A stretch of 64,000 nucleotides of DNA from Methylocystis parvus OBBP (GTDB taxonomy: Bacteria; Pseudomonadota; Alphaproteobacteria; Rhizobiales; Beijerinckiaceae). The stretch is from assembly GCF_027571405.1 (NCBI RefSeq), contig NZ_CP092968.1, positions 1,488,001-1,552,000 on the forward strand. The letters are read 5' to 3'. How positions within the stretch are numbered: position 1 is the stretch's first letter; every line of letters begins with the position of its first letter. The notes beneath the pieces were generated by a model. The model was not told where the DNA came from. It worked only from the letters and a program-made list of their open reading frames with translations, and ran no database searches. The translations under genes and the position numbers were made by a program. Positions 44,854-57,507 of the stretch are shown in pieces.

Positions 44854-44878
44854 CGATATATGTTCTGTATATATAACG
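44854..44878. promoter_or_regulatory. 25-base dyad, Mo-box-like site 1
   Basis: Arms CGATATAT and ATATAACG with a 9-base spacer; the arms match as inverted repeats at 7 of 8 positions. It lies 72 bases upstream of the 105-residue gene at 44951. The arms are like those of the ModE operator (CGTTATAT...ATATAACG), though my recollection of the Escherichia coli site has an 8-base spacer. Confidence 0.7.
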
Positions 44879-44950
44879 ATGAGACGGCCTCGATGTAGAT
44901 CGACCGGCTTTTCTCATGTCCCCGGAAATATAAATATAAAGAGGGTTTCC

Positions 44951-45268
44951 ATGGCCGAGACGAATCTGGAAATGAATGTGGACGTCGTACAAACAGGGGT
45001 CGCCCCCCATTTTGAGAACGAAAAGGCTTCCGATCCTGTCGCTGAAGGGGTCGCAATCGGCGGCGGCTCGGTTCTGATCCATGTGCGGTTCAGACCCGAC
45101 GGGACGGTGTGGGAAATCTCCGCCTGCCCGCCGGATGTCTCCAAAGACGCCTGGTTCAAAAAGCTTTGCGCGCGAGCGAGCGACCGCTTTCAGGCGCGGG
45201 CCGGCGGGCGCGGCATGTTTCGCCTGACCGCCGAGCAATTGGATGCGTTGAAAGCTCAGTCGCATTGA
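44951..45268 (+). CDS. Hypothetical 105-residue cytoplasmic protein
   Basis: A small soluble protein with no signal and no membrane helix. It has an acidic N-terminal half, a central beta-rich stretch (GGGSVLIHVRFRPDGTVWEI) and one helical C-terminus (LTAEQLDALKAQ). The ATG has AGAGGG upstream. It is not recognised as a known family. It is downstream of a Mo-box-like dyad and next to the TonB/ABC genes, so it may belong to the same regulon. Confidence 0.75.
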   Translation: MAETNLEMNVDVVQTGVAPHFENEKASDPVAEGVAIGGGSVLIHVRFRPDGTVWEISACPPDVSKDAWFKKLCARASDRFQARAGGRGMFRLTAEQLDALKAQSH

Positions 45269-45273
45269 TTAAA

Positions 45274-45300
45274 CGGCGGCGGCCATTGCGGCCGCCGCCG
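45274..45300. terminator. Bidirectional terminator hairpin
   Basis: Perfect 11-base arms CGGCGGCGGCC / GGCCGCCGCCG with a 5-base loop, between the 105-residue gene (+) and the YkgJ-type gene (-). On the minus strand it is followed by TTTAAT. Confidence 0.75.
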
Positions 45301-45334
45301 CTCGAGACGCCGACATAGATGTCTCCGTCGCATT

Positions 45335-46072
45335 TTACGCAGGCTGGAGCCCGTCGAACATCGCTGCAGCTTCCGCAGCGTCAAAATCGGGGATCGCCGC
45401 GGGCGCCAATGGATCGGCGCCCCGGAGCCAGGCGTCGATGACGCCCTGAGAGTCGATCGCGATTTTCAGGCCCCGCGTCAGTTCATACAGCCCCCAAGCC
45501 AATCGGGCCTGACGCAGGCCGTTCATCATGGCGTTCTGCACGAGGCTACGCACGACGAGATGCGGCGTCGAGACCGGCGCGTCCTCACCGCCGCCGTCAG
45601 CGGCCGAAATACAAGCTTGCCGGTCAAGCGCGGCATGGCCTCGACAGGCGAGCGGCCGCAAACGATAGGCCAGGCAAAGATCGTTCTCGATAAAAGGACA
45701 GTAGCGCCTGGCGGCCATCCGGTCGGCTTCATCGAGGTCCCCGACGGTCAGCGCCGTATCGGCGATGCGCTGGGAGAGCATGACGCCGCGCGCTTCGAAG
45801 GCTTTCGCATTGACCTCCACGAAACGCGCCAGAACGAAAATTTCCGGAGCGGTCGCGACCACGCGCAGCCGGCAGCAGGCCGCGCATTCTCCCTTACAGG
45901 CGATCTGCGGCGCGCCCTCCGCCTGGATGGCCGCATTTTTCTCGAAAAGATCGAACGCCTGCGCACAAAGCGCGGCGACGAGATCGAACTGGCCGCGGCG
46001 CGTCGCGATTGTCGCGCCGAAGGCCCGGGTCGTTTCCCGGAAGAAGGAAGCAGGTCCAGAGCGGTCGTTCAT
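45335..46072 (-). CDS. YkgJ-family cysteine-cluster protein
   Basis: A 245-residue protein with the CxxxCxxCC metal cluster motif (CKGECAACC at about residue 60), followed by CPFIENDLCLAYRLRPLACRGH, which supplies further cysteines; this is the YkgJ (zinc or iron-sulfur cluster) family pattern. Residues after about 160 form an alpha-helical tail. It begins 35 bases downstream of the TonB receptor gene and is probably co-transcribed. YkgJ proteins are suspected metal-cluster-binding proteins; the partner is unknown. Confidence 0.85.
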   Translation of the reverse strand: MNDRSGPASFFRETTRAFGATIATRRGQFDLVAALCAQAFDLFEKNAAIQAEGAPQIACKGECAACCRLRVVATAPEIFVLARFVEVNAKAFEARGVMLSQRIADTALTVGDLDEADRMAARRYCPFIENDLCLAYRLRPLACRGHAALDRQACISAADGGGEDAPVSTPHLVVRSLVQNAMMNGLRQARLAWGLYELTRGLKIAIDSQGVIDAWLRGADPLAPAAIPDFDAAEAAAMFDGLQPA

Positions 46073-46106
46073 TTTCAGTCTCTTTCGGCCGCCTCCCAAC
46101 GTCCTA

Positions 46107-48521
46107 TCAGAACTTATACCCGATTTTCGCGACGACGGTGCGCGGCGCGCCAGGGAAATAAATGCCTGAACTGGACGTCTGTTGATAGTAGCCATTGCTG
46201 ATCTGGCCGATATAGGCCGTGTTGAACACGTTCATCACCGACAGACTTGCGTTGAAGACGCCGAAGGCGACCTTGCGCTCATAGCCGAAATTGAGATCGA
46301 GCGTCGCATAACCGGAAATCGGCTGATAGCCCGTCGTATCGCCCGAGCGCGAGCTGACGACGTGAACGATGGGCGTGAAGACGAAGCCCATGAAACGAAC
46401 ATTGGCGCCGGCGGTGGAGATCCAGTAAGGCACGTCCGGAAGCTGGCGCCCGGCGACACGGTTATTGAGCAACGTCAGAAGCGGCGCGGTCGCCAAAGTT
46501 TGCAGATTTTGCAGGAAGAGCGAGCGCTGATAGCCGATCGTCCCGAAGAGATCGATCCCTTCGACCGGGGTGATCTGCCCCATCCCCTGAAAGCCGAAAT
46601 TCTCGCTTTGACCGTTGTTCTGGCCGTAGGCGACGCCGATGCCGGGATCGTAAACAACCGATTTGTTGTAGTTCCTCGAATAATAAATCGTCGGCGCCAG
46701 GAAGCCGTTTCCAGCCCAGCTGGCGAAGGACCATCTCGCGCCGGCGTCGACCATCGCGGCGGTTTCCGGCCGCAAGGATTGCCATACCTGGTTCGCGGAA
46801 ATGCCGTTCCTCTGGAAGGTCGCGACATTTTGCTGATAAGCCGGCCATACGTCGAATGACGGCCCGCCATATCCGCCGCCGGCGCTGACCCTCAGTTGCA
46901 GGTCCTTGTTGACGTCATAGGCCAGCGCGCCGAACGGAAGGACAGTGCCGATCGTGAAGCTGTTGACGCTGCGGGAAGGGATGACGCTCGGCGAGAGAGC
47001 CAGCGCCATATTGTAGGGAAACGCGCCGAGGCCGGTGGCGGTCATCTCGTTGATTCCGGCGAATGTCTCCCAATTGTAGCGAATCCCCGCCGTCGCATGG
47101 AGCGCGCCGAAATCGCGGCTGGCGGTCCCGTAGACGGAATTATTGACGTGCGGGCTGGTCTGGGACGCAAGGATCGCCCAGTTCGGATTGGTCATTCCCC
47201 CGAGAACGTTCGGCGCGGACATCTGCCACGCCGTCGGCGGGCCGGGGAGGTTCTGCACGCCGAACCAATGACCGACAGTCAGATCGGTTTCGAGGATTCG
47301 AGATTTGATCTCACTGGTGACGCCATAACTGTCATGGTGGATGAGCCAGTTGCGAACCATCCCGTTCGCCATGCCGTCCAGATAATTTCCGTCCTCACGG
47401 AAATAATAGGGTTTGACGACGACGCGGGCCACATCGCCGACTTTCACCGTGAATTCGCCGAGCGCCGTCCAGCTGTCGAACGATTGCGTGTTGTAATTGT
47501 AATAGTTGACAGCGAGCGACGGAATCGCGCTCGAGATCGGCAAGAAGTTGTAATAGCGATACGCGCTGAGGTTCTGCACCTGACTATAATTGAGGCCGGC
47601 ATATGTATTCGCATTGTAGCTGCTTTTGGCGACGAAAAGCTTGGCTTCAAGAAAGTCCGTCGGGTTCGTCTGGATGCCGACGGCGAAACCCGATTTGCCT
47701 TGCGGCGCCATTCCAGGGCCGCGCCATTGGTGGGCGTCCGTCCAGGACCCCGATAGAAAGACCTTGGTCGTGCCGTTCAGGAAGGCGCCGGAATCGATGC
47801 GCGCGAATGTGCGCAGGAAGCTCGCTGAACCAGCCGATTGGGAAATCTCCGCTCCGAATTTATCGGAGCCCCATCTGAGGCGCGTGTCGATGACGCCGGG
47901 AAGCGTGAAATAGCTATTGACGTTCGCCGGCACGGGTCCCTGATAGAGATCGATCGACGAAAAATTCTCTTGATCGATCATCATTGTGGAGCCGGGGCCG
48001 GGATTGATGCCGTTTATCGGCAATCCATCCACGAGCGTGATGCTGTTGCCGTGCTGGCTCACCTCGCCGCGAATACGAATGCCCTTGAAGCCGCCAGGAA
48101 GATTCGCCAAGCCATATGGATCGATGGCCGGCGCGTCGACCGAAGGTAGAAAACCGACCGCGCGGAGCGGATTCGTTCCGCCCAAGCCGGTCGCGAGTTG
48201 AGCGCCGCGCGGATCGACTCGATAGGTCGTGGAAGGAGAGTCGGGCGCGACGCCGCCGATCGGACTGACGAGCTTTGTCTGCTGCGGAATGGACGCGGCC
48301 TCCGAGCCAGACGCCGCCCTTACCGGAACCGAACGCGCGGCGCGGCCGTCGGCGCCAGATCGTCCGCCACCCGCATTTGCGCCGCGCGCCCCGATCTCGA
48401 TCGCCGGGAGCGGGGTCTGCGCCAGCGCGTCATGCGCGAGCAGAATGAGCAGCGGAATGGAAACGCCGACCCTCAAAGCCGACTGTCTTTTCGTCTTGCT
48501 GACTTGCGTGGCGCGGTACAT
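46107..48521 (-). CDS. TonB-dependent outer membrane receptor
   Basis: An 804-residue receptor. After a signal peptide (IPLLILLAHDALAQ) there is a low-complexity Ala/Gly/Arg region, then a plug domain (GIRIRGEVSQHGNSITLVDGLPING) and a 22-strand-type barrel ending in the aromatic terminus AKIGYKF. ATG 48521 with GGGGGA upstream is chosen. The adjacent BtuCDF-type ABC importer and the Mo-box-like dyad suggest uptake of a metal oxyanion complex or metallophore rather than classical siderophore or B12. No B12 riboswitch fits in the 106-base upstream gap. Confidence 0.92.
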   Translation of the reverse strand: MYRATQVSKTKRQSALRVGVSIPLLILLAHDALAQTPLPAIEIGARGANAGGGRSGADGRAARSVPVRAASGSEAASIPQQTKLVSPIGGVAPDSPSTTYRVDPRGAQLATGLGGTNPLRAVGFLPSVDAPAIDPYGLANLPGGFKGIRIRGEVSQHGNSITLVDGLPINGINPGPGSTMMIDQENFSSIDLYQGPVPANVNSYFTLPGVIDTRLRWGSDKFGAEISQSAGSASFLRTFARIDSGAFLNGTTKVFLSGSWTDAHQWRGPGMAPQGKSGFAVGIQTNPTDFLEAKLFVAKSSYNANTYAGLNYSQVQNLSAYRYYNFLPISSAIPSLAVNYYNYNTQSFDSWTALGEFTVKVGDVARVVVKPYYFREDGNYLDGMANGMVRNWLIHHDSYGVTSEIKSRILETDLTVGHWFGVQNLPGPPTAWQMSAPNVLGGMTNPNWAILASQTSPHVNNSVYGTASRDFGALHATAGIRYNWETFAGINEMTATGLGAFPYNMALALSPSVIPSRSVNSFTIGTVLPFGALAYDVNKDLQLRVSAGGGYGGPSFDVWPAYQQNVATFQRNGISANQVWQSLRPETAAMVDAGARWSFASWAGNGFLAPTIYYSRNYNKSVVYDPGIGVAYGQNNGQSENFGFQGMGQITPVEGIDLFGTIGYQRSLFLQNLQTLATAPLLTLLNNRVAGRQLPDVPYWISTAGANVRFMGFVFTPIVHVVSSRSGDTTGYQPISGYATLDLNFGYERKVAFGVFNASLSVMNVFNTAYIGQISNGYYQQTSSSGIYFPGAPRTVVAKIGYKF

Positions 48522-48549
48522 GGCCGGATCCCCCAATGCCTGCTCACAT

Positions 48550-48574
48550 CGATATGTATCGATATTATACAACC
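48550..48574. promoter_or_regulatory. Degenerate Mo-box-like site 4 (upstream of TonB receptor)
   Basis: CGATATGT, nine bases, ATACAACC; the same architecture as sites 1-3 but with only 4 of 8 arm matches as an inverted repeat. It lies 29 bases upstream of the receptor start. Confidence 0.4.
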
Positions 48575-48627
48575 GATTCACAGAAGAGGCGGCAAGAAGA
48601 TAAATACATCAAGTATTCATTAGAGCG

Positions 48628-49428
48628 TCAGCGTTGCAATTCTGCCACGATTTGTTCGTCGCGCAGGCAAAGCGGCCAATCGATGGGCGCCGGCAGGGTT
48701 ACGCCGTAGAGCTTTTCAATCATCTCCGTCGTTATGACGCTCCGCGCCGGAGCGTCGGCGATGACGCGCGCGTCTTTAAGAACAGCGGCGCGGTTCGCAA
48801 TCTGGAGCGCATGTTCGGGATGGTGCGTGCTGAAAAGAATGCCGCGTCCGTCATCGGCGAGATGTCTCAACAATCGAAGGACTCGTATCTGGAAGCCGAA
48901 ATCGAGACCCGTCAAAGGTTCATCGAGCACAAGAAATTGCGCTTCCTGCGCGATCGCGCGCGCCAGCAGCACGAGTTGTCGCTCACCGCCGGATATCTCG
49001 GTATAGGGGCGCGACAGCAATGGCGTCAGGCCGAGCTGTGCGGCGACGTCATGCGCCACGCGACGGTCCTTCGCATTCGGTTCGACAAAGATCCCGTTGT
49101 GTGGAAGCCTGCCGAGCAGAATGACGTCCGCGACCAGATATGGGAAAGGCGTGACATGCCCTTGCGGAACGTAAGCGATCTGACGCGCGAGCTCACGACG
49201 TCCGAGATTGGCGATGTCGCTTTCGTTGAGAGCGATGCAACCTCCATCCGGCTTCATCAACCCGAGAAGGATGCGAAACAAGGTGCTTTTGCCGGCGCCG
49301 TTCGGCCCGAGCAGCGCGACCGTCTCCCCCTGCGAAATCGACAGGCCGACGCCGTCGAGAATCCGTCGCTCCCCTCTCGAGAAAGTAATATCTCGCGCCG
49401 TGAGGTTCGCCTTCGTCGCTTCCCTCAT
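48628..49428 (-). CDS. ABC transporter ATP-binding protein, BtuD/FecE type
   Basis: A 266-residue ATPase with Walker A (LGPNGAGKST), Q-loop (YVPQGH), signature SGGERQLVLLARA and Walker B (FLVLDEPLTGLDF). The start overlaps the permease stop by four bases. It is the last gene of LLM-SBP-permease-ATPase. The family imports vitamin B12, siderophores or, in MolBC, molybdate/tungstate. Confidence 0.95.
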   Translation of the reverse strand: MREATKANLTARDITFSRGERRILDGVGLSISQGETVALLGPNGAGKSTLFRILLGLMKPDGGCIALNESDIANLGRRELARQIAYVPQGHVTPFPYLVADVILLGRLPHNGIFVEPNAKDRRVAHDVAAQLGLTPLLSRPYTEISGGERQLVLLARAIAQEAQFLVLDEPLTGLDFGFQIRVLRLLRHLADDGRGILFSTHHPEHALQIANRAAVLKDARVIADAPARSVITTEMIEKLYGVTLPAPIDWPLCLRDEQIVAELQR

Positions 49429-50426
49429 ACCCAGCCTCGCCGCGCATGCCGCAGGACGAGCACGAAGGCTGGAACGCCAAGCAGTTCGGTGACGACGCCG
49501 ATCGGCGCCTCCGCATAGGCGATATTGCGGGAGAGGCAGTCCGCGAGAATGAGGAAGGTCGCGCCGAGCAGCGCGCTCGCGGGGATGAGCCTTCGATTGA
49601 GAGGCCCGATCATGAGCCGCGCAATATGCGGGACAACGAGCCCGATCCAGCCGATCATGCCCGCGAGCGCGACGGAGAGGGACGAGATGAGCGTCGCGAG
49701 GCCGATGACGCCGTAGCGCAGCGCATGAACCGGAACGCCAAGAGAGGCGGCTTCATCGTCGCCCATGGTCATCGCGTCGAGAGCGCGTCCGAAAAGGGAG
49801 AGCAGCGTCACGCCGGCGAGTATCGGCGCGGCGGCGTAAGCGACTTGCGCAAGCTCCAGCCCGCCCAGGCTGCCCATCAGCCAATAGACGATCGTCGGAA
49901 GACGATCCGCCGGATCGGCGGCGTATTTCACGATTGAAAGGAGCGCGTTGAAGAACGCGCCCGATATCATGCCGCCGAGCACGAGCACGATGATGGAGGG
50001 CGCGCCGTAAAGATTGGCGATCAGGACGCCAGTCGCGACCGCCGCCACGCCCATTCCAAAAGCGGCGAACTGCACGACGAACCAGTTTCCCGAGACGAGA
50101 ATGCCGAGCGCCGCGCCGAAACTCGCGCCGCCGAGCACGCCCAATATTCCTGGCGACACGAGAGGATTGCGGAACACAGCTTGGAACGCGGCGCCCGACG
50201 CCGACAGCGCCGCGCCGATCAGCGCCGCCCCGAGCACGCGCGGCAGGCGGATCTCGACGATGAGATTGCGCAACAGATCGGCGCGCTCGGGCGGCAACTC
50301 GACGACGCCCAGCGCGGAACCGGCATAGGCGAGGATCTCGCCCGGCGGGAGCGGATAGCGGCCGACGCCGAGCGCAAAAAGCATCGCAGCGGCGAGAAGC
50401 GGCGGCAAGAGGTAAAGCCTGCTCAC
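49425..50426 (-). CDS. ABC transporter permease, FecCD/BtuC type
   Basis: A 333-residue permease with about ten membrane helices and the FecCD signatures LRLPRVLGAALIGAALSASGAAFQ and GVPVHALR (the coupling-helix region). It is the type II importer fold. The start is GTG at 50426, one base after the SBP stop. It forms a homodimer with the adjacent ATPase and SBP. Confidence 0.95.
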   Translation of the reverse strand: MSRLYLLPPLLAAAMLFALGVGRYPLPPGEILAYAGSALGVVELPPERADLLRNLIVEIRLPRVLGAALIGAALSASGAAFQAVFRNPLVSPGILGVLGGASFGAALGILVSGNWFVVQFAAFGMGVAAVATGVLIANLYGAPSIIVLVLGGMISGAFFNALLSIVKYAADPADRLPTIVYWLMGSLGGLELAQVAYAAAPILAGVTLLSLFGRALDAMTMGDDEAASLGVPVHALRYGVIGLATLISSLSVALAGMIGWIGLVVPHIARLMIGPLNRRLIPASALLGATFLILADCLSRNIAYAEAPIGVVTELLGVPAFVLVLRHARRGWV

Positions 50427-50427
50427 G

Positions 50428-51456
50428 TCAATTCTTGCCGAGAATGCGATCGACGTCCGCGTCGTCGATCTCGACGCCGAGGAAGAAGCTGTAGAATTTC
50501 TTTGTCTCAGCTTTCAAATCGAGGGGAAAACGGTTCGGATAAAACAAATTGGCGAGCCACTGTATGCCTAATGCGCGCATATAGCTCGGGGGCCGGTCGA
50601 GCCAATTGAAAGGTTCATGCGGGATGTAGAAGACCTTCCCGTCCTTCGCCGCGGGGACGTTGCGCCAAAAGGGGTTCGTCATGACCCTCCCCGCGAAGCT
50701 CCTGTCCTGCGCCAATATGATTTCCGGCCTGAAGGCGACGATTTGCTCCAGCGCGATTTTCTCCATTCCCATATGGTTGGCTTGACCGCAGTGATAGACA
50801 TTGTCGCCGCCGGCGAGAACGATCGGTTCCGCATGGAAGCTCTTGTCGCAATCCGTCGCGAGACCATCTGGGCTTTCCGCGTAATAGACACGCAACTTCT
50901 CGGCGGCGGGGATGTCGCCGACGGCGCGCTTCACCCCCGCCTGCGCGTCCTCGACATAGGCGGCCAGAGCTTCAGCCTTTTCCTTCTTGCCGAAAAGATC
51001 GCCCAGGAAGCGAAATGTCGCCGGATAGTCGGCGAGCGTGTCGAGTTTCACGAAGACGACGGGCAGGCCCATCTTCGAGAAGCTCGACTCCGCCTTGGCG
51101 CTGTCCACGAAGCGATCGAGCCAGGCGATGACGACGTCCGGATGGCGGCTCATGACTTCTTCGGGATTGAGCGTGCGCCCGAAACCAGCCTGGCTTCCGA
51201 GAGCCGGCAGATTCGCTGCTTCCTTGCGGAGGTAGGATTTCTCGCCGACCAGATAGGGCGTGTTGAGCCCGATCATCATTTCCGGAGCGAGCGCGTAAAT
51301 CATCAAGGTTGCAGGCGGCGACGAGCCGTAGACGCGCGCGATTTTGTCCGGGATCGCGACATGGCGGCCCGCCATGTCGACGATCTCGCGCGCGGATGCG
51401 AGACAAGGCGTCGCAAAAGACAGGATCGCCAGCAGGAGGCGCGCGAAACGGTTCAT
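50428..51456 (-). CDS. ABC transporter substrate-binding protein, BtuF/FepB type
   Basis: A 342-residue periplasmic binding protein: signal peptide (LLLAILSFATPCLASA), then a class III fold with REIVDMAGRHVAIPDKIARVYGSSPPA and a later segment RHPDVVIAWLD. The ATG overlaps the LLM stop by four bases. MolA-type molybdate binding proteins belong to the same fold family; this cannot be distinguished from heme, iron or B12 binding by eye. Confidence 0.92.
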   Translation of the reverse strand: MNRFARLLLAILSFATPCLASAREIVDMAGRHVAIPDKIARVYGSSPPATLMIYALAPEMMIGLNTPYLVGEKSYLRKEAANLPALGSQAGFGRTLNPEEVMSRHPDVVIAWLDRFVDSAKAESSFSKMGLPVVFVKLDTLADYPATFRFLGDLFGKKEKAEALAAYVEDAQAGVKRAVGDIPAAEKLRVYYAESPDGLATDCDKSFHAEPIVLAGGDNVYHCGQANHMGMEKIALEQIVAFRPEIILAQDRSFAGRVMTNPFWRNVPAAKDGKVFYIPHEPFNWLDRPPSYMRALGIQWLANLFYPNRFPLDLKAETKKFYSFFLGVEIDDADVDRILGKN

Positions 51457-52454
51457 AGAGCTGCCTGCCTTTCCGGCGCTTGCGTGACGAAGGGTCGAAT
51501 ATGTTCGGCGAAATCGTCGAGCGCGCCGAGATTTCGGTCTTCGTCGAGCGACGCCGGTTTGAGAATGACGGAACGAAACCCGGTTCGCTCTTGCAGGAAG
51601 GCGATTTTGTCGCGCACCTCGTCGAAACTGCCGATCAATGAGCGTTCGATCAATCCGCTCGGATCGAAGACCGGCCCTTTTTCACCGCGCGCCAGAAAGA
51701 TTCCCTGCATCCGTTCGGAAAAGCGATGAATGAAAGGAACGGCCTGCGCGAGCGCTTTGTCTCTTGTCCGCGCCGCGAAATAGAAGCGCGCCAGAATGAG
51801 CCTGGGATCGGCCTCCGGCCCTCCGGCCTCACGATAGGCTTCCACGGCCTGAACGATGCGCTCGATCGGAAAAGGCGAGCCGCCCATGATGCCGAATCCC
51901 CTCCGCGCCGCATAGGCGACGGCGTCGGGCGTGGCGGTTGCGACATAGGTCGGAACCGGAGATTGAAGCGGTCTTGGCGCGATCGACACATGGTCGCACG
52001 CATAATAATTCCCTTGAAAACTGACGGTCTCTTCGTTGAGGAGGCGATCGATCAGCTCGAGCGCTTCAACGGTCATGGCGCGGGAATCCTTCTCCTCGAC
52101 GTCGAAATGCTTGTTCTGGAGCGCGAAGGGACCGCCTTTGGCGACCCCGAAATCGAAACGCCCGCCCGAAAGCACATCGACCGTCGCAACATCCTCGGCG
52201 ACCTGAATCGGATTGCGGAAGGCAAGGAGCGCGGCCGCGGAGCCAAGACGGATTCGAGAGGTGACGCCCGCCAGATAGCCGATCAGCGGAAAGATGGACG
52301 GACTCGCCGCATCCGGGTCGAAGTGATGCTCCGCGACCCAGGCCTCGTCGAAACCCAGCGCCTCGGCGCGGCGAATGAGCTTGGATTGCGCGGAATAAGC
52401 GCGCGCAAAATCGGCGTCGGGGTTCTCGTAGGTGCAGAAGACGCCGAATTTCAT
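51453..52454 (-). CDS. LLM class flavin-dependent oxidoreductase
   Basis: A 333-residue luciferase-like TIM-barrel monooxygenase that uses reduced FMN. It contains EAWVAEHHF, the characteristic RIRLGSAAALLAFRNPIQVAEDVATVDVLSGGRFDFGVAKG segments and PTYVATATPDAVAYAARRGFG. ATG 52454 is chosen. It heads the ABC operon and is preceded by the Mo-box-like site 2. It might modify the imported ligand. A possible FMNH2 source is the FMN reductase at 57864. Confidence 0.93.
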   Translation of the reverse strand: MKFGVFCTYENPDADFARAYSAQSKLIRRAEALGFDEAWVAEHHFDPDAASPSIFPLIGYLAGVTSRIRLGSAAALLAFRNPIQVAEDVATVDVLSGGRFDFGVAKGGPFALQNKHFDVEEKDSRAMTVEALELIDRLLNEETVSFQGNYYACDHVSIAPRPLQSPVPTYVATATPDAVAYAARRGFGIMGGSPFPIERIVQAVEAYREAGGPEADPRLILARFYFAARTRDKALAQAVPFIHRFSERMQGIFLARGEKGPVFDPSGLIERSLIGSFDEVRDKIAFLQERTGFRSVILKPASLDEDRNLGALDDFAEHIRPFVTQAPERQAAL

Positions 52455-52504
52455 GCTCTGTCTCTTGGGACGAAGACTTCCACGCCAGACAGCCTCGGGC
52501 ATCT

Positions 52505-52529
52505 GGATATATAAGTTACAAATATAGCG
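52505..52529. promoter_or_regulatory. 25-base dyad, Mo-box-like site 2
   Basis: GGATATAT, nine bases, ATATAGCG, 51 bases upstream of the LLM start. The two arms are identical to those of site 3 read on the other strand. Confidence 0.7.
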
Positions 52530-52611
52530 CTATATGAGGCAGGCCGGCCGCCGCAAGTAAAAAGGAATGGCGAGATCTGCGGCTTTTTGCGCATCGTTGG
52601 CGCGGCCCATC

Positions 52612-53157
52612 CTAATTCGGGCGCTCGCATCCCTCGAAGGACGCGCTTTGATTATGCCACCAGGCGGAAAGCGCATTCACATGCGCGTCGACGAATTCCG
52701 ACAGTTCGCCGGCGAAGCGGTCCCAATCTTCGGCCAGCGGCGGAGGAACGGCCGTAATCACCGGTATGTCGGCCATCATCGCCGCGCGGAAAGCATCGCA
52801 TAATCCGCTGCGGGCGGCTTCGAGCTTGCCGAATTTGCTGAGGACGACCACGTCGACCCCTTGCGCGATCGCCTCCTCGATCATGCCGCAGGCCAAAGCG
52901 AGGCCATTTGGGTCGAGATTGCAGGCCTCCGATCCTCCGCCAAGTTTCTGCGAGATGGAATAAGTTTCGCCGGAGCTGAGATCCCGAACGCTGAGGCTTT
53001 TGCACCGTCCCTCTTCCGCGCAACGGGAAATTTCCACGACCCCCGCGACCCGAAGGCCCTGATCGCGCAGTTGCTGCGCAAAGGCGTAGAGGGTGTTTTG
53101 GATCAGCGGGCTCGAGGCGCCTTGAACGGCTGCGATGCGTTTGACTGCGAGTTTCAT
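52612..53157 (-). CDS. DUF2478 family protein
   Basis: A 181-residue protein of the DUF2478 family (nucleoside-triphosphatase-like fold) with VEISRCAEEGRCKSLSVRDL and the hallmark VVLSKFGKLEAARSGL. The ATG with GGAGG upstream is at 53157. DUF2478 genes are often found beside molybdate transport genes. Here it follows the EF2563-type gene by 15 bases, so they form one operon. Confidence 0.88.
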   Translation of the reverse strand: MKLAVKRIAAVQGASSPLIQNTLYAFAQQLRDQGLRVAGVVEISRCAEEGRCKSLSVRDLSSGETYSISQKLGGGSEACNLDPNGLALACGMIEEAIAQGVDVVVLSKFGKLEAARSGLCDAFRAAMMADIPVITAVPPPLAEDWDRFAGELSEFVDAHVNALSAWWHNQSASFEGCERPN

Positions 53158-53172
53158 CGAGGCCTCCAACAT

Positions 53173-54039
53173 TCAATGCAGCGACAATTGCGTCATGGCT
53201 GGCGCATGACGGCCAAGCGTTCTCTCGATCGCTTCGACGACCGCCGAGGCGACCGCCCGGCCGCGCTCGTCCGTGCCGGTCCAGCAGGCCTGCCGCCCGC
53301 GCGTATCGATCTCGACGAGCTTCACGCCGCCCGGCGTCGGCGTTCCGTCGCGGGCGACGCCTCTCAGATAGCCGTCCATCGGAGCGCGAACGGGGGAGCC
53401 CTCCAGATAACCGATCACGAAGCCGCGAAAGACCAATGCGCCAATATCGAGCGGCGTGCGCCAGACGCCCTGCCGGTTCGCATAGACGAAGCGCTCCTTG
53501 CCGGCTCCGCCGAGCGGCCGCGCGACGCCGTCGGCGAGCCGCGTCTCGCCCGACGCCACCAGATCGCCGGTGCGATCCGGATGCGTTTCGATGGCGATGT
53601 CGCAGTTTTCGTGCGCGGCGAATTTCGGTCCGACGCCGACGGCCAGCCGCGCGAGCCGGCGCAAATCGGGCGTCACCCGGTGCTTCTGCATGCGCGCGTC
53701 CACAACGACCGTCGGCGTTCTGAGCGTTATCAGGTCCGTTAGCTGGCGGTGGGTGACGACGACCCGGCCGGAAGCCATGAGCGTCTGGACGATATCGACC
53801 GCGGTTTCGGCGCGCTCGCCGACGATCCCGTCGACCTCGGCTCGATCGTCATACAGCGCGTCGTGAAATGACATGCCGCGTCGGATAACGGGCGGAAAGG
53901 GGTCGTGACTCATCACGACCCGAAAACGCTCCCATGAGAGACGAACCGCCACGGCCGACGCGATTTCATTCGTGCCGAGAATGATCGCATATGGCCCAGC
54001 GCGGTCGGAGAGAAAGGCGTTCGGGCAGAAGTCGTCCAT
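53173..54039 (-). CDS. EF2563/YqeB-family selenium-dependent molybdenum hydroxylase system protein
   Basis: A 288-residue Rossmann-type protein with LGTNEIASAVAVRL and the signatures GVGPKFAAHENCDIAIETHPDR and GYLEGSPVRAPMDGYLRG. Members are linked to maturation of molybdenum hydroxylases. ATG 54039 has GGGGG upstream. It is divergent from the formate dehydrogenase gene, with Mo-box-like site 3 upstream. Confidence 0.9.
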   Translation of the reverse strand: MDDFCPNAFLSDRAGPYAIILGTNEIASAVAVRLSWERFRVVMSHDPFPPVIRRGMSFHDALYDDRAEVDGIVGERAETAVDIVQTLMASGRVVVTHRQLTDLITLRTPTVVVDARMQKHRVTPDLRRLARLAVGVGPKFAAHENCDIAIETHPDRTGDLVASGETRLADGVARPLGGAGKERFVYANRQGVWRTPLDIGALVFRGFVIGYLEGSPVRAPMDGYLRGVARDGTPTPGGVKLVEIDTRGRQACWTGTDERGRAVASAVVEAIERTLGRHAPAMTQLSLH

Positions 54040-54093
54040 GCTGAGACCCCCTTTCAAATCAGGTCTGAGCAAAGGCCGGGCCAAAATGGGCGT

Positions 54094-54118
54094 CGCTATA
54101 TTCTTATGTTATATATCC
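54094..54118. promoter_or_regulatory. 25-base dyad, Mo-box-like site 3
   Basis: CGCTATAT, nine bases, ATATATCC, 55 bases upstream of the EF2563-type gene. Its reverse complement has exactly the arm bases of site 2 (GGATATAT...ATATAGCG). Confidence 0.75.
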
Positions 54119-54627
54119 ATATCCTCGGCCGGCTGAGGCTTCTCGAACGGTCGGCTAACGCACAATGACGTCGAAAGCGCGCAAAATTGTGGGGAACCAA
54201 ACAGGACGGGAGCCGCCGCGGCGCCGGCCGCTTTTTGTCCTATAGGCCCCTTCGCGTTTGGCGTTGGGCGGCGGAACAGGAAATAAAAACCGCCTGACGC
54301 CTGGAAAACCCGGCGACGGGCGCGACGCGGCTCCAAATCAAAAGATCGCGCGTCGAAGCGAAAATCTCAAAATCGATATGTATTCAATTTTTATTTCGAT
54401 TGATAGACATTAACAACTCTTCAAAAATCACCCAAAATAGGCTGACACATATCCAGCATATTTTTCAGATCTAGGTCAATTCGTGATAATTCTCTAAGCA
54501 AATCGGCCGATTGATATTTTGGTATTGATCAATTGATGCTTTAAAATCATTCATCGACCTTCCGATACGGGCGGCTGCAACCACGAGCAATCGCGCAGCC
54601 CGGCGAGGCGAACAGGGATTTGCGACC
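54119..54627. other. AT-rich intergenic region upstream of fdhA
   Basis: A region of about 500 bases without a gene. Bases 54360-54600 are markedly AT-rich compared with the rest of the window, with runs such as AATTTTTATTTCGATTGATA. It presumably carries the fdhA promoter. Confidence 0.6.
54374..54398. promoter_or_regulatory. Degenerate Mo-box-like site 5 (upstream of fdhA)
   Basis: CGATATGT, nine bases, TTATTTCG, with outer AATCGA / TCGATT completing the dyad; 230 bases upstream of fdhA. Only the outer bases match sites 1-3 well. Confidence 0.35.
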
Positions 54628-57507
54628 ATGGCTTTGATCAAGGAAACGGATTTCGGCACGCCGGCGTCGCGGTCGGAAACCCTCGTCACGCTGACGATCG
54701 ACGGCAAGAGCGTCACGGTTCCCGAGGGCACGTCGATCATGCGCGCCGCGATGGAGATCGGCGTCGAGATCCCGAAGCTCTGCGCGACGGACATGGTCAA
54801 ATCCTTCGGCTCCTGCCGGCTATGCGTCATCGAGATCGAAGGCCGCAACGGCGCGCCCGCCTCCTGCACGACGCCCGTCGCGCCGGGAATTTCGGTGAAG
54901 ACGCTCACCCCGCGCGTCGACGCCATCCGGCGTGGGATCATGGAGCTTTATATCTCGGATCATCCGCTCGACTGCCTCACCTGCGCGGCGAATGGCGATT
55001 GCGAGCTGCAATCCATGGCCGGCGCGGTGGGCCTGCGCGAGGTGCGCTACGGCTATGACGGGAAGAACCATGTCTTCGCCCGCAATGACGGCAAGCCCAA
55101 CGAAGAGTGGCTGCCGAAGGATCAGAGCAATCCTTACTTCACCTACGACCCCTCCAAATGCATCGTCTGCAATCGTTGCGTGCGCGCCTGTTCGGAAGTG
55201 CAGGGGCAGTTCGCGCTGACGATCGAGGGGCGCGGCTTCGACAGCCGCGTTTCGCCCGGCGTCCATGAAGCTTTCATGGAGTCGGAATGCGTTTCCTGCG
55301 GCGCCTGCGTGCAGGCCTGCCCGACGGCGACGCTCGTCGAAAACTCCGTCATCGCCATCGGCCAGCCCGAACATTCCGACGTGACGACCTGCGCCTATTG
55401 CGGCGTCGGCTGCGCTTTCAAGGCGGAGATGCGCGGCGAGGAGATCGTGCGCATGGTTCCCTGGAAGGACGGCAAGGCCAATCACGGCCATAGCTGCATC
55501 AAGGGCCGCTTCGCCTATGGCTATGCGCTGCATCGGGACCGCGTGCTCTCGCCCATGATCCGCGAGAAGGTCACCGACCCGTGGCGCGAGGTGAGCTGGG
55601 AGGAGGCGATCTCCTACGCGGCGTCGCGTTTCAAGGCCATTCAGGAAAAATACGGCCGCCTCGCGGTCGGCGGCATCACCTCCTCGCGCTGCACCTGCGA
55701 GGAAACCTATCTGATGCAGAAGATCATCCGCAGCGGCTTCGGCAACAATAATGTCGACACTTGCGCGCGCGTCTGCCATTCGCCGACAGGCTACGGGCTG
55801 AGCCAGGCTTTCGGCACGTCGGCCGGCACGCAGGACTTCGACTCGGTGGAGGGCGCCGACGTCATCCTCATCATCGGCTGCAATCCGACCGACGCGCATC
55901 CGGTCGTCGGTTCGCAGATCAAGAAACGGCTGCGCGAGGGCGCGAAGCTCATCGTCGTCGATCCGCGCCGCACGGAGATGGTGCGCACGCCCTATATCGA
56001 GGCGGCGTTCCATCTGCCGCTGAAGCCGGGAACCAATGTCGCGATCGTCACGGCGCTGGCGCATGTCATCGTCACGGAAGGCCTCGTCAACGAGGAGTTC
56101 GTCCAGACGCGCTGCGAGTGGGACGAATATCAGGACTGGGCGGCCTTCGTTTCCGAAGAACGCAACAGCCCCGAGGCGGTGGAGCAATATACGGGCGTTC
56201 CGGCGCATCTCGTGCGCGGCGCGGCGCGGCTCTACGCCACCGGCGGCAACGCCACGATCTATTACGGCCTCGGCGTCACCGAGCATAGCCAGGGCTCGAC
56301 CACCGTCATGGCCATCGCCAATCTGGCCATGGCGACCGGCAATCTCGGCCGCAAGGGCGTGGGCGTCAATCCGCTGCGCGGACAGAACAATGTGCAGGGC
56401 TCCTGCGACATGGGCTCCTTCCCCCATGAATATCCAGGCTATCGCCACGTCTCCAACGATGACACGCGCGAACTCTTCGAAAAGGCCTGGGGCGTCGATC
56501 TCGATCCCGAGCCGGGCCTGCGCATCCCGAACATGTTCGACGCGGCGGTCGAAGGGCGTTTCAAGGGCCTCTATGTGCAGGGCGAGGACATTCTGCAATC
56601 CGATCCCGACATCAAGCACGTCTCGGCCGGCCTCGGCGCATTGGATTGCCTCATCGTGCAGGACCTCTTCCTCAACGAGACGGCCAATTACGCCCATGTG
56701 TTCCTGCCGGGCGCGAGCTTCCTCGAAAAGGACGGCGTCTTCATCAACGCCGAGCGCCGCGTGCAGCGCGTGCGCAAGGTGATGAGTCCCAAGGCCGGCT
56801 ATGCCGACTGGCAGGCGACGCAGATGCTCGCCAACGCCATGGGCTGCGACTGGGACTATAAGCATCCGAGCGAGATCTGGGCGGAGATGGCGAGCCTGAC
56901 GCCGCCTTTCGCGGGCATCTCTTACGAGAAGCTGGACGAGGTTGGCTCCGTGCAATGGCCCTGCAACGACGCCACGCCGGAAGGCATGCCGATCATGCAT
57001 ATTGACGGCTTCGCGCGCGGCAAGGGCAAATTCGTCATCACCGAATATGTGCCGACCGACGAGCGCACCGGCCCGCGCTTCCCGCTGCTGCTGACGACGG
57101 GACGCATCCTGTCGCAATACAATGTCGGCGCGCAGACGCGTCGCACCGAGAACAGCCAGTGGCATCCGGAAGACGTGCTGGAAATCCATCCGCATGACGC
57201 GGAGCTGCGCGGCGTGCGCGACGGCGACTGGGTGCGCGTGCAAAGCCGCGCCGGCGAGACGACGCTGCACGCGAAGATCACCGACCGCGTGGCGCCGGGC
57301 GTCGTCTACACGACGTTCCACCATCCGCTCTGCCAGACCAATGTCGTGACGACGGACAATTCCGACTGGGCGACCAACTGCCCCGAATACAAAGTCACCG
57401 CCGTGCAGGTCTCGCCCTCCAACGGCCCGACCGAATGGCAGGAGCGCTATCGCGCCATGGCCGAGAACAGCCGCAGGATCGAAGCCCCGGCGCCGCCGGC
57501 GGAGTGA
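54628..57507 (+). CDS. NAD-dependent-type formate dehydrogenase alpha (molybdenum) subunit
   Basis: A 959-residue FdsA/FdhA-like subunit that oxidises formate to CO2. Order: 2Fe-2S ferredoxin domain with SFGSCRLC (about residues 20-95), NuoG-like His-Cys cluster segment (HPLDCLTCAANGDC), two 4Fe-4S motifs (CIVCNRCVRAC, CVSCGACVQAC), a further CAYCGVGC cluster and the bis-MGD domains. The catalytic pair is Cys383-His384 (RVCHSPTG), with cysteine and not selenocysteine. No diaphorase (fdsB) or fdsG gene is present in the window, so this subunit appears alone here. Confidence 0.96.
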   Translation: MALIKETDFGTPASRSETLVTLTIDGKSVTVPEGTSIMRAAMEIGVEIPKLCATDMVKSFGSCRLCVIEIEGRNGAPASCTTPVAPGISVKTLTPRVDAIRRGIMELYISDHPLDCLTCAANGDCELQSMAGAVGLREVRYGYDGKNHVFARNDGKPNEEWLPKDQSNPYFTYDPSKCIVCNRCVRACSEVQGQFALTIEGRGFDSRVSPGVHEAFMESECVSCGACVQACPTATLVENSVIAIGQPEHSDVTTCAYCGVGCAFKAEMRGEEIVRMVPWKDGKANHGHSCIKGRFAYGYALHRDRVLSPMIREKVTDPWREVSWEEAISYAASRFKAIQEKYGRLAVGGITSSRCTCEETYLMQKIIRSGFGNNNVDTCARVCHSPTGYGLSQAFGTSAGTQDFDSVEGADVILIIGCNPTDAHPVVGSQIKKRLREGAKLIVVDPRRTEMVRTPYIEAAFHLPLKPGTNVAIVTALAHVIVTEGLVNEEFVQTRCEWDEYQDWAAFVSEERNSPEAVEQYTGVPAHLVRGAARLYATGGNATIYYGLGVTEHSQGSTTVMAIANLAMATGNLGRKGVGVNPLRGQNNVQGSCDMGSFPHEYPGYRHVSNDDTRELFEKAWGVDLDPEPGLRIPNMFDAAVEGRFKGLYVQGEDILQSDPDIKHVSAGLGALDCLIVQDLFLNETANYAHVFLPGASFLEKDGVFINAERRVQRVRKVMSPKAGYADWQATQMLANAMGCDWDYKHPSEIWAEMASLTPPFAGISYEKLDEVGSVQWPCNDATPEGMPIMHIDGFARGKGKFVITEYVPTDERTGPRFPLLLTTGRILSQYNVGAQTRRTENSQWHPEDVLEIHPHDAELRGVRDGDWVRVQSRAGETTLHAKITDRVAPGVVYTTFHHPLCQTNVVTTDNSDWATNCPEYKVTAVQVSPSNGPTEWQERYRAMAENSRRIEAPAPPAE

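Follow-up and report, generated by a model that had tools for sequence, protein, structure and literature searches.

The window analysed here, a stretch of 64,000 nucleotides from Methylocystis parvus OBBP, a nitrogen fixer belonging to a family of methane oxidisers (contig NZ_CP092968.1, positions 1,488,001 to 1,552,000), carries five 25-base dyads that we regard, with a probability of roughly 0.8, as operators of a ModE-type regulon. The genes lying behind them include those for a TonB-dependent outer-membrane receptor, a periplasmic binding protein (SBP) distantly related to MolA, and a BtuCD-type ATP-binding cassette (ABC) importer, which likely constitute a molybdenum (Mo) uptake route within that regulon. 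A sequence-only reading of the window had proposed the dyads as a shared, ModE-like operator, and the sequence bears out their positions and their 9-base spacers:

44854..44878, no strand assigned: ModE-type dyad 1 (CGATATAT-N9-ATATAACG), 72 bp 5′ of the start of the gene for a 105-residue orphan protein; exact-pattern match; matrix score 29.1 (training site)
52505..52529, no strand assigned: ModE-type dyad 2, 50 bp 5′ of the operon encoding an LLM (luciferase-like) flavin monooxygenase family protein, the SBP, the permease and the ATPase; exact-pattern match
54094..54118, no strand assigned: ModE-type dyad 3, 54 bp 5′ of the YqeB-DUF2478 genes; exact-pattern match
48550..48574, no strand assigned: weaker dyad, 28 bp 5′ of the TonB receptor start (ATG 48521); score 20.0, outside the training set
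54374..54398, no strand assigned: weaker dyad, 229 bp 5′ of the start of the formate dehydrogenase (FDH) alpha subunit gene fdhA; score 17.9 with a matrix built without this copy

Sites 1 to 3 display the inverted repeat CGnTATAT ... ATATAnCG of ModE operators, with arms of 8 bases around the 9-base spacer; as the sequence-only reading had noted, they stand within 50–75 bases of start codons, and the arms of site 2, read on the reverse strand, are those of site 3. Arm bases are self-complementary at 7/8, 6/8 and 6/8 positions in sites 1 to 3, at 4/8 in the TonB copy and at 5/8 in the fdhA copy. The two weaker copies are present as claimed, the fdhA copy lying far beyond the 50–75-base range. 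The pattern CGYTATATN9ATATAKCS was derived from sites 1 to 3, so that their exact match is by construction and the informative result is where the next-best places fall. With up to three mismatches it has nine matches in the window, compared with a mean of 0.67 and a maximum of four in 100 dinucleotide shuffles.

Across the genome (4.53 Mb on three contigs), only the three window sites match the pattern exactly, and eight further places do so with at most two mismatches. Six of these eight lie at Mo- or nitrogenase-related genes: two between a modE gene and a second SBP gene, SBP439; one 5′ of a YqeB paralogue (YqeB2, 75% identical to the window YqeB) that precedes the same modE; one 5′ of modB-modC; one 5′ of a gene for a NifA-like sigma-54 activator; and one on contig C2, a plasmid, 5′ of a nifD-like gene with a TonB receptor gene behind it. 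The random scatter that the sequence-only reading had named as refuting its proposal is thus not seen among the best matches. At the C2 site (L029:6209-10247 = G000:C2:13208-17246), the nifD-like gene is divergent and reaches 166.7 bits against the TIGR01282 cut-off of 653.55, and the siderophore-type receptor is split into two reading frames. The genome further encodes two ModE-like proteins, each with a helix-turn-helix and two TOBE stretches and both under the TIGR00637 and NF007957 cut-offs. A place with three mismatches lies 5′ of vnfDGK and counts in favour of the ModE reading. A pair is formed by the fdhA copy and the site 5′ of the NifA-like gene, which are identical at 22 of 25 bases, spacer included; a joint pattern of the two, allowing up to three mismatches, finds only those two places genome-wide and none in the control.

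Several counts weigh against an operator reading. The remaining two of the eight places, C1:1310117 and C1:1416138, adjoin genes without a visible Mo link and look like chance; at up to three mismatches the genome holds 88 matches, compared with 95 for the reversed pattern; and the strict pattern with at most one mismatch occurs 29 times in 59 other genomes of the family together, compared with 23 times in the control. Since the three-mismatch tier shows no excess over the reversed pattern, it is mostly noise and only the top-scoring places are informative; since the strict pattern shows no excess outside its own genome, homologous loci were compared instead. For this purpose a symmetric weight matrix was trained on eight own-genome sites and applied, at a cut-off score of at least 15, to about 3 kb around homologues in other Beijerinckiaceae. 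Dyads were found in 8/29 orphan loci, 8/29 SBP loci and 6/29 YqeB loci, whereas none of 30 control loci, drawn from this family and centred on other Peripla_BP_2 proteins, had one (one control, L293, comes from the own genome). That the dyads are chance features of promoters and their shared neighbours a coincidence draws some support from the AT-richness of promoters and from the missing three-mismatch excess; the control loci, the unique fdhA/NifA-like pair and the shuffles of distant SBP loci described below already disfavour this explanation, which we consider very improbable.

Examined gene by gene, windows upstream of homologues in these relatives contain dyads for FDH in 4/4 cases (FDH genes in SBP loci), SBP439 in 3/3, SBP in 6/24, YqeB in 3/15 and LLM in 1/8, with a shuffle control of at most 0.1 on average; none was found upstream of TonB (0/11), permease (0/19), ATPase (0/25), ModB (0/2) or ModE (0/4) genes. 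An orphan count of 7/10 was discarded, as eight orphan stretches had been picked after dyads were seen or as a sibling genome (the unselected figure is the 8/29 above), and ModC counts were discarded as mostly cross-matches of other ABC ATPases. Longer SBP stretches taken regardless of any dyad carry one in 11/20 cases, in one of which (L162) it lies far from the cluster. Among 199 family genomes the orphan is present in 38, the SBP in 24 (E up to 1e-60) and YqeB in 39, and gene orders in relatives link to one another the seemingly unrelated genes of the window. Another genus has fdhA divergent from SBP-permease-ATPase, with a dyad on both sides, in four genomes (L149, L151, L152, L153); L167 has dyad, YqeB, DUF2478, SBP, permease and ATPase in a single run; L175 has dyads, a NifK-like gene, two LLM genes, orphan, YkgJ, SBP, ModC and ModB; in L174, which has two dyads, the orphan adjoins ModB-ModC; and in L182 YqeB-ModE and SBP439 are transcribed away from each other, two dyads lying between them or close by. 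In genus g42 (L168-L171) the orphan is flanked by two YqeB paralogues, with an LLM gene and a ModE-like fragment match nearby in 2/4 loci. The nearest database relatives of the window proteins are those of Methylocystis and Methylosinus.

The E. coli-type ModE operator has, as quoted in PMC545781, the consensus ATCGNTATATA-N6-TATATANCGAT. The window sites resemble such operators in their CGnTATAT/ATATAnCG arms, in their position 5′ of molybdate transport and molybdoenzyme genes and in the presence of modE in the genome; they differ in a spacer of 9 instead of 8 bp between 8-base arms, and many of the arms are imperfect. All five window sites have a 9 bp spacer, as do 9/9 own-locus dyads scoring at least 19, most of these dyads being training sites. 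In loci of other Beijerinckiaceae unselected for a dyad, it is 9 bp in 10/18 and 8 bp in 3/18 cases (2/6 and 3/6 in YqeB loci alone); a count of 13/19 Beijerinckiaceae dyads (score at least 19) at 9 bp was set aside because its loci were biased toward dyads by selection. Other bacteria have an 8 bp spacer in 83/103 dyads. The 9 bp spacer is a habit of this genome and a tendency of the family, not a rule, and because it occurs at every window site the label "ModE-type operator" is used and an E. coli-type operator is not claimed. A published parallel is provided by Rhodobacter capsulatus, where, according to PMC6925177, the ModE-like proteins MopA and MopB repress anfA and the mor and mod genes; both systems share two ModE-like regulators and Mo-boxes 5′ of mod genes and of an alternative-nitrogenase activator. 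The extra transporter there is MorABC, described as similar to ModABC, whereas that of the window combines a FecCD/BtuC-type permease and a Peripla_BP_2 binding protein with a TonB receptor.

The genes of this region are as follows:

44951..45268, plus strand: 105-residue orphan protein; conservation sets in at about residue 42; outside all Pfam and NCBIfam families searched; paralogue in a nif cluster
45335..46072, minus strand: CxxCxxCC (YkgJ-type) protein, PF03692; convergent to the orphan gene
46107..48521, minus strand: TonB-dependent outer-membrane receptor; PF00593 above cut-off, PF07715 slightly under cut-off
48628..49428, minus strand: ABC importer ATPase, BtuD/FecE type, PF00005
49425..50426, minus strand: ABC importer permease, FecCD/BtuC type, PF01032
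50428..51456, minus strand: SBP (Peripla_BP_2), distant MolA relative; C203, H208 and C223 invariant in 35 relatives
51453..52454, minus strand: LLM flavin monooxygenase family protein, PF00296; first gene of its operon
52612..53172, minus strand: DUF2478 protein (nucleoside triphosphatase-like), PF10649
53173..54039, minus strand: YqeB/EF2563-like protein; TIGR03309 158.9 bits, below the cut-off of 220
54628..57507, plus strand: FDH alpha subunit (fdhA); TIGR01591 948.4 bits, cut-off 666.25

As in MolABC importers, the FecCD/BtuC-type permease, the ATPase and the Peripla_BP_2 protein are encoded in one operon, and sequence comparison indicates a relation of the SBP to MolA. In the alignment, judged by eye, the invariant Cys and His positions of the SBP family are absent from MolA itself. 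A binding protein of Sulfurospirillum deleyianum (4pag), whose entry title names no function, is also listed among the closest known systems. A sequence search matched no PDB chain to the TonB receptor. The available part of PMC4031551 makes no mention of such a receptor for the Haemophilus influenzae MolBC-A system (HI1470-HI1472), the MolA protein of which binds bare molybdate. ModE operators are already known; a conserved TonB/LLM system under ModE was not found in the titles, abstracts and passages covered, exact-phrase searches returned no paper, and a TonB-dependent molybdate system under ModE is not described in the accessible parts of the papers covered (PMC6925177, PMC4031551, PMC545781 and PMC2700814 among them), a negative that is weak evidence of novelty because subscription papers mostly fell outside that scope.

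The pairing of operator and importer extends well beyond the family. An alignment of 35 SBP sequences was used to retrieve the loci, of which 80 of 109 related ones (1.27 Mb in total), from several proteobacterial classes and Campylobacterota, were scanned with arms of the own matrix, a spacer of 8 or 9 and a score of at least 17. They contain 121 ModE-type dyads, compared with 9, 2, 4, 5 and 5 when the sequence was dinucleotide-shuffled five times; 35 of the 121 fall within the kilobase 5′ of the SBP match and none within the next kilobase, and 17/80 loci have a dyad at most 700 bases 5′ of it. Homologues found by tblastn at 1e-8 comprise a permease in 73 loci, a TonB receptor in 47, ModE in 30 and LLM in 29, the TonB and LLM matches of 25–40% identity denoting superfamily membership and not orthology. 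ModE is nearby in 20 of the 31 loci taken as Campylobacterota (L233 and L259 by cluster likeness only) and in 10 of the 49 others. Many of the Campylobacterota loci, L240, L249 and L250 among them, carry near-perfect E. coli-type dyads with an 8 bp spacer. In L189 (Rhodomicrobium) the order is modE, dyad, TonB-plug protein, LLM, SBP, permease, ATPase. Comparison of these sequences points to a widespread, little-studied form of Mo scavenging.

The cargo of the importer deserves separate consideration. Within a ModE regulon, the TonB/ABC system might carry another metal needed in Mo shortage, namely vanadium for V-nitrogenase or iron. The genome encodes VnfD and VnfG, both above cut-offs (L035, G000:C1:2244327-2253379), NifA-like regulators 75% (L203:4764-6329) and 72% (L215:14338-15894) identical to the own one adjoin TonB receptor-SBP-permease-ATPase genes in a Rhodocyclaceae and a Chromatiales metagenome-assembled genome, and the SBP fold is common to iron and siderophore binding proteins. 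Against this stand the Campylobacterota loci L240, L249 and L250, in which the SBP system and ModE dyads occur in stretches that no nitrogenase query matched (the rest of these genomes being unsearched for V-nitrogenase), the adjoining FDH genes in four genomes, and the fact that the SBP's sequence relative of known ligand is the molybdate-binding MolA. Carriage of another metal is rather unlikely. Elsewhere in the genome, nifDKEN-type genes are located at C1:74514-80450, and Oxidored_nitro matches number nine in total.

Chelates are usually taken up by a TonB receptor working with a BtuCD-type importer. An organic Mo chelate (molybdophore) may accordingly be imported and its chelator broken in the cytoplasm by the LLM monooxygenase, helped in some clusters by a methyltransferase and a globin, a version that seems possible rather than probable. 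Besides the transporter layout, the LLM gene in 29/80 SBP loci speaks for it, as do the clusters of L203 (methyltransferase, LLM, globin) and L229, which additionally has ExbB- and TonB-type proteins, methyltransferase and globin. The LLM matches, at their low identity, may belong to other subfamilies, chelator biosynthesis genes were neither seen nor sought, and MolA, as noted, binds its molybdate bare. The Bac_globin proteins (L229:4524-5099, L203:13492-14112) lie within ModE-dyad clusters alongside LLM and methyltransferase genes.

For Mo uptake under ModE, the following course is proposed. At high cellular molybdate, ModE would bind the dyads and switch off the promoters of the orphan gene, of the LLM-SBP-permease-ATPase operon, possibly continuing into the TonB receptor gene, and of YqeB-DUF2478; under Mo shortage these genes would be turned on. 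The receptor, the MolA-like SBP and the BtuCD-type importer would then carry Mo, as molybdate or chelate, across both membranes alongside ModBC, while YqeB and DUF2478 may act in cofactor or insertion steps. Other members of the regulon would be modBC, the YqeB2-modE operon and the genes for the NifA-like activator and V-nitrogenase; Mo uptake and reliance on the Mo-free nitrogenase would in this way go up together. A promoter scan predicts no promoter at sites 1 and 2 and four weak ones within 54400-54547. Given the 229 bp between the fdhA copy and its gene, repression is no likelier there than activation or the absence of any effect, and the copy may be an activating site. Near a transporter gene and ModE2, L026:9068-9457 resembles, by eye, the antisense of an fdhA start and is possibly an fdhA remnant.

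The small metal regulon envisaged by the sequence-only reading is accordingly upheld in kind, being much larger than the window, and its orphan is not isolated. Judged by its sequence, the YqeB-like protein, which had been labelled EF2563 family, is a homologue of YqeB/EF2563 and not an equivalog, its score falling under the curated cut-off. Relatives of the orphan comprise seven database proteins (its own included) and occur in 8/43 genera, and a paralogue, a 70-residue protein of the own nif cluster, has 84 relatives. Orphan and YkgJ-type family are also neighbours in the gene maps of L175 and L178. Pfam and NCBIfam searches returned no supported family for the orphan, and its fold model, with a predicted local distance difference test score (pLDDT) of 68.5, gave no Foldseek match at E ≤0.001; an involvement with nitrogenase or in the handling of Mo is conjectural. 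In the nif cluster (L179:4899-6386) the 70-residue paralogue has a thioredoxin-like [2Fe-2S] protein and a SIR2-like one as neighbours.

In its most extended form, which is put forward tentatively, ModE-controlled and TonB-energised Mo acquisition would be common to diazotrophic Proteobacteria and Campylobacterota, with the receptor, a Cys/His MolA-like SBP, the BtuCD-type importer, an LLM protein freeing Mo from the imported chelate, and the orphan as the Mo-shortage version of the nif-cluster protein; if true, the Mo sensor of the system would itself define a class of receptors for Mo chelates. In many soils and waters nitrogen fixation is held back by scarce Mo, yet accounts of Mo uptake in bacteria centre on ModABC-type transporters of the inner membrane. 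If Campylobacterota and several proteobacterial classes keep ModE-type operators at a TonB receptor and type II importer, uptake would acquire a stage at the outer membrane that Mo controls directly, and proteins of unclear role, namely the orphan, YqeB, DUF2478 and LLM, would gain a common physiological setting.

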